Source of the DNA: Alcaligenaceae bacterium | GTDB taxonomy: Bacteria; Pseudomonadota; Gammaproteobacteria; Burkholderiales; Burkholderiaceae_B | NCBI GenBank assembly: GCA_029267415.1 | Contig: JAJUIY010000006.1 | Location: forward strand, 1 to 37,024 | Length of the DNA stretch: 37,024 bases | Direction of reading: 5' to 3' | Part shown: one piece after another, positions 32,262 to 36,136 of the stretch | Numbering within the stretch: position 1 is the stretch's first letter | Layout: the number at the start of each line of letters is the position of its first letter | Program-made: the position numbers and the translations under genes | Notes under the pieces: generated by a model | Seen by the model: the letters and a program-made list of their open reading frames with translations, nothing else | Told to the model about the DNA's origin: nothing | The model's database searches: none

Positions 32262-33221
32262 TCAGGCGGCCACGGCACGTTCGAGTGCCTCGACGAAAAA
32301 CGCACCGACATCAAACCCGGTCTGTTCGGTGATCTCTACAAAGCATGTCGGACTGGTTACGTTAACCTCGGTCAGAAAATCGCCAATAACATCCAGCCCG
32401 ACCAACAACAGCCCCCGCTGTGCAAGTACCGGCGCCAGTGACTCGGCAATTTCGCGATCACGCTCGGTAAGGGGTTGGGCAACACCACGACCGCCGGCGG
32501 CCAGATTACCGCGGGTTTCTCCCGCCAGCGGGATACGGGCGAGCGAGTACGGCACCGGCTTCCCGCCGATAACAAGGATGCGCTTGTCGCCGTTGACAAT
32601 GTCGGGAATATAGCGCTGCGCCATGATGGTGCGCTGCCCATTATCGGTAAGCGTTTCGAGGATAGAGCCAAGGTTGGGGTCAGACGAGGTGACACGGAAA
32701 ATACCCGTGCCGCCCATGCCGTCCAGCGGCTTGACGATGATATCGCCCTGTGCGGCGTGGAAACGACGCAGCCGCGCCATATTGCTGGTTACCACCGTGG
32801 GCGCCGTAAACTGGGCGAATTCAGTAATGGCCAGCTTTTCGGGATGGTTTCGTAACGCCGCACCGGCGTTGAACACACGCGCGCCCTGCGCTGCCGCATA
32901 ATCGACCAAATGCGTGGCGTAAAAATACTCCATATCGAAGGGCGGATCTTTACGCATCAACACGGCGTCAAAGTGCTGCAAAGGCACGTCTTGAGGTTCG
33001 TCCCGTTGCACCCACCAATCGGGGCCGTGCAAGTCGGCCCCTTGGACCAGGTCGATGCCCGTAGCCTGGGTTTTGACAACACCCTGATCAATATAGATAT
33101 CGCCTTGCAAGGTGACGCTAAGGGTGTGACCCCGGGCAACCAGCGATTGCATCATGGCAACCGACGTGTCCTTATAGGCCTGCAGCCCGGGCAATGGATC
33201 GATGACGAACAAAACGTGCAT
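32262..33221 (-). CDS. gshB: Glutathione synthetase
   Basis: MHVLFVIDPLPGLQAYKDTSVAMMQ...VLMRKDPPFDMEYFYATHLV...IIVKPLDGMGGTGIFRV...DVIGDFLTEVNVTSPTCFVEI. Confidence 0.97.
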   Translation of the reverse strand: MHVLFVIDPLPGLQAYKDTSVAMMQSLVARGHTLSVTLQGDIYIDQGVVKTQATGIDLVQGADLHGPDWWVQRDEPQDVPLQHFDAVLMRKDPPFDMEYFYATHLVDYAAAQGARVFNAGAALRNHPEKLAITEFAQFTAPTVVTSNMARLRRFHAAQGDIIVKPLDGMGGTGIFRVTSSDPNLGSILETLTDNGQRTIMAQRYIPDIVNGDKRILVIGGKPVPYSLARIPLAGETRGNLAAGGRGVAQPLTERDREIAESLAPVLAQRGLLLVGLDVIGDFLTEVNVTSPTCFVEITEQTGFDVGAFFVEALERAVAA

Positions 33222-33270
33222 ACAACACCTGCTGTAACCTGCCCCCGGCTGACGCCCCGCAAGACAGGCG

Positions 33271-33315
33271 GAGAAAAATGAAAACAGCGGCAGCCGGCAA
33301 AGGCGGCTACCGCTG
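33271..33315 (-). terminator. Rho-independent terminator after infC
   Basis: Minus strand CAGCGGTAGCC-gcctttgcc-GGCTGCCGCTG followed by TTTTCATTTTTCTC. Confidence 0.75.
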
Positions 33316-33328
33316 CGTTAGCGACCGT

Positions 33329-33847
33329 TTACTTCTTCTTGGGCGCAAGCACCATCACCATTTGGCGCCCCTCAAGCTTGGGCATGGCTTCGACTTGCGC
33401 GAGATCTTCCATATCGTCCCGCACGCGTTCCAAAACACGCATGCCTAATTCTTGGTGTGCCATTTCGCGGCCACGGAAGCGAAGCGTCACCTTGGCCTTG
33501 TCGCCATCCTCAATAAACCGCCTGAGATTGCGCAGTTTGACTTTGTAATCACCCTCGTCGGTGCCAGGACGAAACTTGACTTCCTTGACCTGGATAACCT
33601 TTTGCCGTGCACGGGCTTCTTGTTGTCGTTTCTGTTCCTGATAGCGGAACTTGCCGTAATCCATCAGTCGGCAGACTGGCGGGTTGGCGTTAGGGGCAAT
33701 TTCGACGAGATCTACTTCAAATTCTTCAGATTTCTGAAGGGCTTCGGCGATTTTTACAATGCCCAGCTGTTCGCCGTCCAGTCCAATGAGTCGTACCTCG
33801 GGGACACGAATCTCGCCGTTGATACGATGTGCTTTATCGGTTGCGAT
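33329..33847 (-). CDS. infC: Translation initiation factor IF-3, likely AUC start
   Basis: (I/M)[113 protein letters not shown]7-ATC just upstream; ORF track extends to a TTG at 33874. Confidence 0.95.
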
Positions 33848-33909
33848 GTCAGAGACTCCTAAGTTGTTGATCAATTTGCCGCCCGCTAACCCGCGAGCGG
33901 CTCGGTGCC

Positions 33910-35838
33910 CTATGTGCGGGCATCAATTCGATTTTGCAGCAATGCGGCAAAATCTTCAATTCCGATGATGGCCTGGTCGCGGCCGCCACGTTCACGTACC
34001 GCCACTTGGCCACTTTCGCGTTCTTTTTCACCCACGACCAAAATGTACGGCACTTTTTGCATACTATGCTCACGAATTTTACGGTTGATCTTTTCAGCGC
34101 GCAAATCGGCCGTGACCCTAAAGCCACGCTCTTTCAGCTTGGCAGCCACCTCGGCGGCATAATCAGCGGTGCGTTCCGAGATAGAACACACCACGGCATG
34201 CTCGGGGGCGAGCCAGGCGGGCAGCGCACCGGCATAGTTCTCGATCAAGATTCCAATGAAGCGCTCGAACGATCCCAGGATGGCCCGATGCAGCATCACC
34301 GGCGTCCGGCGCTGGTCATTGGCGTCGACATATTCGGCACCCAGCCGTTCCGGCATGGAGAAATCGACCTGGATGGTACCGCATTGCCAGTGACGGCCAA
34401 TGGCGTCTTTCAACGTGTATTCGATTTTAGGGCCATAAAACGCACCCTCGCCCGGCGAGACGTCATACTCGCAGCCGGTTTGCTCGAGGCTGTCGATCAG
34501 GGCTTGCTCGGCCTTGTCCCAGACCTCGTCGGACCCAATGCGCTTCTCGGGCCGTGTCGCCACCTTGTAGAGAATCTCGGTGAAACCGAAATCGCGGTAA
34601 ACGCGCTGCAACAGCGCCGTAAAGGCCGCGCATTCGTCCTGAAGCTGGTCTTCAGTGCAGAAAATGTGTCCGTCATCTTGGGTAAAACCCCGGACCCGCA
34701 TCATGCCGTGTAACGAACCCGAGGGTTCGTTGCGGTGGCACATACCAAATTCGCCATACCGGATCGGCAACTCACGGTACGAGTGCAAGCCGGCGTTGAA
34801 AATTTGAATGTGCCCCGGGCAGTTCATGGGTTTCACCCCATAGACACGGTTTTCGGACTCGGTCGTGAACATGTTTTCTGCATAGTTGTCCCAGTGGCCG
34901 GTTTTTTTCCATAGAGACAAATCCAGAATTTGTGGCGCCTTGACTTCTTGGTACCCGTTGTCTTGGTACACGGCGCGCATGTACTGCTCGACCTGCTGCC
35001 ACACCACCCAGCCTTTGGGATGCCAAAACACCAGACCGGGAGCCTCGTCCTGGAAATGAAACAGACCTAGTTCGCGACCCAACTTGCGGTGATCGCGCTT
35101 CTCGGCCTCTTCCAGCATCGTCAGATAGGCCTTTTGCTCATCTTTGGTGGCCCAGGCCGTGCCGTAAATGCGCTGCAGCATTTCGTTGTTACTGTCGCCA
35201 CGCCAGTACGCACCCGCCACCTTCATCAGCTTGAACACCTTGAGGTGGCCGGTGGAGGGCACGTGTGGCCCGCGGCACAGGTCGATGAAGTCGCCTTCGC
35301 GGTACAGTGTGATGGGTTCATTTTGCGGGATGGAAGCGATGATTTCCGCTTTGTATTGCTCGCCCTGCTGCTTGAAGAATTCGACCGCTTCGTCCCGATC
35401 CCACACCTCACGAGTGACAATTTCGTCCTTGCGAGCAAGTTCGGCCATTTTCTCTTCAATGGCTTTAAGGTCGTCGGGCGTGAACGGCCGGTGATAGGCA
35501 AAGTCGTAATAGAACCCGTTTTCGATGACCGGACCAATGGTTACCTGGGCGTCAGGAAAAAGCTCTTTGACCGCGTAGGCCATCAGGTGGGCGGTGGAAT
35601 GGCGCAGTATTTCCAGACCGTCGGGATCTTTTGCCGTAACGATTTCAAGGTCAATATCGTCTTCAATGACATATGAGGTATCGACCAGGCGGGACGGTTG
35701 CTCGGCCCCCTTGGGCTTTACGCGCCCGGCCACCGCCGCACGCGCGAGACCGGCACCAATTGACTGGGCAACCTCATCAATGGTGACCGGGCCGGGAAAT
35801 TCCCGTCTAGAACCGTCGGGCAACGTAACCTGAACCAT
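33910..35838 (-). CDS. thrS: Threonine--tRNA ligase
   Basis: [28 protein letters not shown] (TGS domain), [55 protein letters not shown]; start trimmed to 35838, SD AGGA at correct spacing. Confidence 0.97.
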
Positions 35839-35858
35839 AAATGCCATCCTGAACGCAT

Positions 35859-35884
35859 AAAAAAACGCGGCCAAAGCCGCGTTT
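35859..35884 (-). terminator. Intrinsic terminator immediately upstream of thrS (attenuator terminator 3:4)
   Basis: Minus strand AACGCGGC-TTTG-GCCGCGTT followed by five further T (7-T run); lies ~20 nt from the thrS start. Confidence 0.85.
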
Positions 35885-35932
35885 CGGGAATACTAATAGC
35901 CACTTATATGGCGAAACAGTACGCGGCGACTG

Positions 35933-35977
35933 TCAGAGACGCCAAGCCGTAGTTCGCGTAGTGTTTAGCCAAGCCAT
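35933..35977 (-). CDS. Candidate thrS leader peptide MAWLNTTRTTAWRL
   Basis: ATG GCT TGG CTA AAC ACT ACG CGA ACT ACG GCT TGG CGT CTC TGA read on the minus strand; 4 Thr codons in a 6-codon span; no clear Shine-Dalgarno seen. Confidence 0.6.
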   Translation of the reverse strand: MAWLNTTRTTAWRL

Positions 35978-36019
35978 GTAATATGCAATGAGTAGCCGTT
36001 AATTTTAAATGAAGAATTC

Positions 36020-36096
36020 TGGTAGGCAGTACTGGATTCGAACCAGCGACCTCTACGATGTCAACGTAGCGCTCTAACCAACTGAGCTAACCGCCT
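36020..36096 (-). tRNA. tRNA-Val(GAC)
   Basis: AGGCGGTTAGCTCAGTTGGTTAGAGCGCTACGTTGACATCGTAGAGGTCGCTGGTTCGAATCCAGTACTGCCTACCA: complete cloverleaf, anticodon loop TTGACAT, encoded CCA. Confidence 0.97.
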
Positions 36097-36106
36097 GAAG
36101 ACTTCT

Positions 36107-36136
36107 ATTATAGAGCAATTAGAATTTAGTTGTCAA
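36107..36136 (-). promoter_or_regulatory. Consensus sigma70 promoter for tRNA-Val
   Basis: Minus strand TTGACA (36136-36131), 18-nt spacer, TATAAT (36112-36107). Confidence 0.75.

Follow-up and report, generated by a model that had tools for sequence, protein, structure and literature searches.

The results presented here indicate that thrS, the threonyl-tRNA synthetase gene of an Alcaligenaceae bacterium, is in all probability (about 0.86 by our estimate) governed by a ribosome-mediated transcription attenuator of the trpL/pheM type that would tune its expression to the supply of charged tRNA-Thr. Attenuation of thrS through Thr codons had been proposed in a first-pass annotation of the same DNA. 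The proposal, which is read from sequence, is directly supported by the anatomy of the leader, its conservation, the specific enrichment of Thr codons, the competing pairings and their spacing relative to the leader codons. Attenuation of this class is textbook knowledge from trpL and hisL and, for an aminoacyl-tRNA synthetase, from pheM-pheST.

Anatomy and competing stems of the thrS leader

The window, that is, the whole stretch of 37,024 nt of DNA that was analysed, contains the following features at the thrS locus.

36107-36136, minus strand: sigma-70-type promoter TTGACA-18-TATAAT of the tRNA-Val gene (consensus match 12/12)
36020-36096, minus strand: tRNA-Val (GAC) gene, immediately preceding the attenuator (ARAGORN; Rfam RF00005, 69.1 bits)
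35933-35977, minus strand: Thr-codon leader ORF, MAWLNTTRTTAWRL and a stop codon (sequence; homologous leaders in many relatives)
35955-35970, minus strand: region 1, GGCTAAACACTACGCG, overlapping the first Thr codons (pairs with region 2; 1:2 pairing exceeds shuffles in 74 leaders)
35910-35927, minus strand: region 2, GCCGCGTACTGTTTCGCC, starting 5 nt past the leader stop codon (from the fold)
35876-35886, minus strand: region 3, CGAAACGCGGC, the 3' arm of the antiterminator and left arm of the terminator (2:3 duplex; 3:4 hairpin)
35859-35871, minus strand: region 4, GCCGCGTT, which with the T run forms an intrinsic terminator (sequence, hairpin energy, equivalents in relatives)
33910-35838, minus strand: thrS, threonyl-tRNA synthetase (ORF; a homolog is present in 118 of the 120 genomes sampled from the order)

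The leader ORF is 45 nt long and has 14 codons, four of them for Thr, in the order ACT ACG (CGA) ACT ACG. The ORF and its codons are present as first annotated, and the same is true of CACTACGCG at 35963-35955, of region 2 (GCCGCGTACTGTTTCG at 35927-35912) and of region 3. The terminator, also correctly placed by the annotation, is AACGCGGC-TTTG-GCCGCGTT followed by T7 and lies on the minus strand between the leader ORF and thrS. Its stem, AAACGCGGC/GCCGCGTTT, occupies 35884-35876 and 35871-35863, and the T run extends to 35859, which leaves approximately 20 nt to the thrS ATG (35838). The isolated 3:4 hairpin has a folding energy of -15.7 kcal/mol. AGGA precedes the thrS ATG. No clear Shine-Dalgarno sequence precedes the leader ORF in the window, a weak point that the annotation had conceded and that a re-reading of the sequence bears out.

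Region 2 pairs with region 3 to form a 2:3 antiterminator, which is exclusive with the terminator and differs from shuffles in the window at p 0.04. The 1:2 stem joins GGCUAAACACUACGCG (35970-35955) to CGCGUACUGUUUCGCC (35925-35910); the pairing claimed originally is present, but the length given for it (8 of 9 bp) was too short, since the stem comprises 14 bp with two mismatches. Taken in the window alone, the 1:2 stem gives p 0.075 against shuffles. The minimum free energy fold of the leader, at -46.1 kcal/mol, contains the 3:4 hairpin plus most of the 1:2 stem.

Both pairings recur among relatives. Across 74 leaders, the mean z was -1.30 (sem 0.14) for the 2:3 duplex against dinucleotide-shuffled spacers and -1.22 (sem 0.15) for the 1:2 stem against dinucleotide shuffles, in a set that includes 17 leaders picked by eye and relatives that are not independent. 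The combined shuffle p-values of approximately 1e-16 overstate the case, given the kinship among the sequences and the selection by eye, and are not to be taken literally. For single species, the 2:3 pairing reached p<0.05 in 23 of the 74 leaders, and many others were indistinguishable from shuffles. The z of -1.30 was obtained with the loop included and the start set after the Thr codons, whereas a generic 60-nt spacer with the terminator arm alone gave a weaker value (z -0.88); the exact size of the 2:3 effect is therefore dependent on definition. Comparison of native partners with partners swapped from dissimilar species, with row and column effects removed, gave z -0.71 (sem 0.12) for 2:3 and z -1.15 (sem 0.13) for 1:2. 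The same stretch of region 2 is used by both pairings in 71 of the 74 leaders, which makes 1:2 and 2:3 mutually exclusive. The three regions also change together. GCCGCG/CGCGGC is replaced jointly in regions 2, 3 and 4 by GTCGAGG/CCTCGAC in Pandoraea and by TAGTCGCG/CGCGACTA in Advenella, and a further relative (L178) has a changed terminator arm with a matching change in region 2 (CTAGTCGTAC/GTGCGGCTAG).

Measured over the 74 leaders, the median start of region 2 is 0 nt from the leader stop codon and 20 nt beyond the final core Thr codon. The start falls within -8 to +7 of the stop codon in 65 percent of cases, versus 33 percent in shuffles. According to PMC4833913, a ribosome at the stop codon can cover as many as 12 nt beyond it. 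The spacing fits the classical geometry, in which region 2 would be masked by a ribosome that terminates at the stop codon and left free by one stalled on the Thr codons.

Regulation would then proceed as follows. RNA polymerase would start upstream, the tRNA-Val promoter being the likeliest site in this genome, and transcribe the leader ORF with its four Thr codons. When Thr-tRNA is ample, the ribosome would reach the stop codon and cover region 2, and when no ribosome is present, regions 1 and 2 would pair. In both cases region 3 would remain available to region 4, and the resulting terminator would end transcription ahead of thrS. A shortage of Thr-tRNA would make the ribosome stall on the Thr codons and hide region 1, such that region 2 would pair with region 3, the terminator would be blocked, and thrS would be transcribed. 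The steps that we infer are that the tRNA-Val promoter is used, that the leader is translated, that transcription terminates and that charging is sensed.

The genes that follow thrS have features of their own. No ATG is found near the conserved start of infC (33329-33900), where the frame reads ...GAC ATC GCA ACC GAT AAA..., suggesting a putative non-AUG start (ATC). Non-AUG starts of infC are known elsewhere. A glutathione-synthetase-like gene, rather than rpmI-rplT, follows infC in the window (32262-33329) and in a relative (L084, 4090-4917).

Conservation and Thr specificity

The upstream regions examined came from 80 genome contigs, 30 relatives and 120 further genomes. Of 110 near relatives, 59 have a short ORF with three Thr in five codons ahead of thrS, where dinucleotide shuffles predict 2.2. 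The corresponding figures are 15 (0.9 expected) for 80 genomes from across the order and 1 (0.3 expected) for 40 genomes from other orders. Seven other codon boxes were at or near expectation upstream of thrS. The enrichment is also specific to place, as judged by a scan that covered the window and the loci of relatives. The thrS leader is the sole short ORF on either strand of the window that combines three Thr in five codons with a terminator, and the same scan of the loci of 40 relatives returned 21 matches, every one ahead of thrS, with none elsewhere in 515 kb.

Leaders were found in Achromobacter (MFFPLARTTTRNFRPMSR), Bordetella petrii (MISRPTRTTTGNFRPMSR), Pusillimonas caeni (MHIPFERTTTTAC), Roseateles (MTPRTTTTPTKV) and Noviherbaspirillum (MTPRTTPQQVQERR), as well as in further families (MSFRTTTTGTLNQG and MFKRTTTTRISR). 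In 57 non-redundant leaders that were selected solely by an Arg-Thr/Ser motif, Thr occupies core position +2 in 42 cases and position +3 in 34, neither position having entered the selection; all four Thr codons occur. Of 80 leader candidates, 79 received a call for a hairpin with a T run; six of the 80 are not clear Thr leaders and were excluded from the pairing tests.

The first-pass annotation had made its reading depend on homologs that retain the Thr ORF and the 2:3 pairing along with the terminator. This stands for dozens of betaproteobacteria, to which the Thr ORF, the terminator and the 2:3/1:2 complementarity are common, with Thr codons synonymously swapped and region 2 tracking region 3. 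It does not stand for five close relatives (L003, L007, L013, L022 and L086), in which a similar GC-rich terminator hairpin precedes thrS without a Thr ORF. The leader of L089, a member of the same genus, starts with GTG and is Thr-poor. Across the order, 65 of 80 genomes fall short of three Thr in five codons, and several of the 65 carry a related MTPRT or FRTCT leader. In a genome from another order (L216), a short ORF, MSTTTAQR, followed by a terminator lies upstream of thrS and is possibly an independent Thr leader.

The upstream tRNA-Val gene and alternative explanations

The tRNA-Val(GAC) gene at 36020-36096 was missed by the first-pass annotation, which had identified no strong dedicated promoter. 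That point is amended by the 12/12 match to TTGACA-18-TATAAT at 36136-36107. No promoter closer to the leader than the tRNA-Val promoter was seen in the window, and it is likely that the tRNA-Val promoter drives the leader. In this genome and in 109 of the 230 beta- and gammaproteobacterial regions read, a tRNA-Val gene immediately precedes thrS and shares its strand. The attenuator may also serve to separate tRNA-Val expression from thrS expression.

The frequent presence of tRNA-Val, together with the relatives that have a hairpin without a Thr ORF, would suit a simpler arrangement in which the hairpin serves tRNA-Val as a plain terminator, thrS is expressed from a separate promoter, and the Thr codons occur by chance. 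However, many relatives have the Thr leader and the hairpin with no upstream tRNA, and with a promoter-like GTTACACTA before the leader. Moreover, the Thr enrichment is approximately 27-fold and specific to Thr, and the T run lies only approximately 20 nt from the thrS ATG. Since the whole leader is kept in relatives that lack the tRNA, the plain terminator was rejected, and the simpler arrangement is highly unlikely. Feedback regulation of thrS is also established, through an operator in E. coli and through T-boxes in Firmicutes, and the leader RNA could correspondingly be an operator bound by ThrRS, as in the translational autoregulation of E. coli, or a T-box. Yet the leader matches neither a T-box nor any other Rfam family, and its conservation tracks the Thr codons, the competing stems and the terminator. 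Little space, approximately 20 nt, is available for an operator between the terminator and the start codon. The E. coli thrS operator is marked by hairpins that resemble the tRNA-Thr anticodon and adjoin the thrS ribosome-binding site; no conserved extra hairpin was noticed by eye here. An operator or T-box at this position is very improbable.

A different explanation is prompted by the Arg codon that immediately precedes the first conserved Thr codon: in 67 of 69 leaders it is CGA. With a share of 4.5 percent among the Arg codons of 93 thrS genes, CGA is rare. Several leaders also contain little Thr (MTPRTQETSLPAL, MTPRTCFFLR). The conserved core might therefore be a stalling peptide, or a rare-codon pause at CGA that couples ribosome and polymerase, with the supply of Thr irrelevant. 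Against this, the residues around CGA are variable except for Thr, Thr at +2/+3 is kept with synonymous codons, and three relatives (L143, L153 and L125) have CGA swapped for CTG or CCG with the Thr codons retained. A core indifferent to Thr is accordingly given very little credence, and attenuation by Thr codons remains the preferred reading.

The CGA-ACN codon pair and relation to known systems

In the window, the conserved CGA is at 35954-35956 (minus strand). CGA accounts for 15 of 69 of the other Arg codons of the same leaders. As their first Thr codon, 43 of 57 leaders use ACT, which represents 10.5 percent of the Thr codons in thrS. The invariance of CGA and ACT as a by-product of 1:2 pairing was considered and rejected, as core positions +2/+3 are no more paired than in shuffles. 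Likewise, the likeness of CGAACTCAG in some leaders to a segment of 5S rRNA was dismissed because other lineages have CGAACTACG.

The complete genome of a relative (G004) contains tRNA-Arg with anticodons ACG, CCG, CCU and UCU and lacks UCG; by established decoding rules, CGA should therefore be read by an inosine-modified tRNA-Arg. A search for tRNA-Arg in the source genome with a guessed sequence pattern returned no match. It is conceivable, though on balance doubtful, that the sensor is a fixed CGA-ACN codon pair, in which CGA is read via the inosine anticodon of tRNA-Arg(ACG), and the I.A wobble in the P site slows Thr decoding and sharpens the response to a shortage of Thr-tRNA, within an attenuator family ancestral to many betaproteobacteria. 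The replacement of CGA in some lineages indicates that CGA is not indispensable. A function of the conserved CGA-ACT nucleotides at the RNA level is another reading.

Scans with Rfam rejected two known identities for the leader. Thr_leader (RF00506) gave no match at E<=1 in the window and none at the gathering threshold in 12 relatives, and T-box (RF00230) gave no match in the window or the 12 relatives. No family in Rfam 15 covers a Thr-codon leader of thrS.

The kind of mechanism is known; the CGA-ACN pair is the more novel part. Like the thrS leader, E. coli pheM-pheST has a leader peptide containing the codons of its own amino acid, competing stems and an intrinsic terminator before the synthetase gene. 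The two differ in amino acid, gene and taxa, and the thrS leader has the conserved CGA-ACN pair and the tRNA-Val gene directly upstream. We know of no sequence relation between the thrS leader and pheM-pheST. The E. coli thrS operator and the Firmicutes thrS T-box resemble the leader in providing feedback on thrS from the status of tRNA-Thr, but the former is translational, the latter is a tRNA-binding RNA, and both function without a leader peptide. In thrL of thrLABC (RF00506), a stalled ribosome also senses Thr codons, whereas thrL governs threonine biosynthesis and senses Ile as well. Both pheST and the trpS and leuS genes of Streptomyces are cited as classical attenuators (PMC1262725). 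The latter share with thrS the ribosome-mediated attenuation of a synthetase gene, but for other amino acids and in Actinobacteria.

A Thr-containing leader peptide on thrS itself was reported in 2021 in Streptomyces lividans, where a weak thrL leader, MKRVRPFLETTPGFVPAR, has 2 Thr (PMC8079986, Table 4). Unlike the leader described here, it belongs to a leaderless transcript for which the authors found no U-run terminator (PMC8079986); it was described in a single species with no alternative stems shown, and its sequence is unrelated. The novelty is thus smaller than the first-pass annotation implied. In the text of a 302-genome terminator survey, threonyl-tRNA synthetase appears solely as the E. 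coli case of autoregulation (PMC2965389). A comparative survey of aminoacyl-tRNA synthetase attenuators from 2010 (Lopatovskaya et al., Mol Biol 44:128), cited in PMC4833913, may already list a betaproteobacterial thrS leader. Besides Streptomyces, no precedent for a Thr leader on thrS was found in the literature checked.

Finally, thrS is a textbook example of feedback on a synthetase, and a conserved Thr-codon attenuator of thrS in many betaproteobacteria would represent a third independent solution, beside the operator of E. coli and the T-boxes of Firmicutes. Such a leader would serve as a ready natural reporter of how far tRNA-Thr is charged, and would allow one to ask why a rare CGA codon is retained beside control codons.
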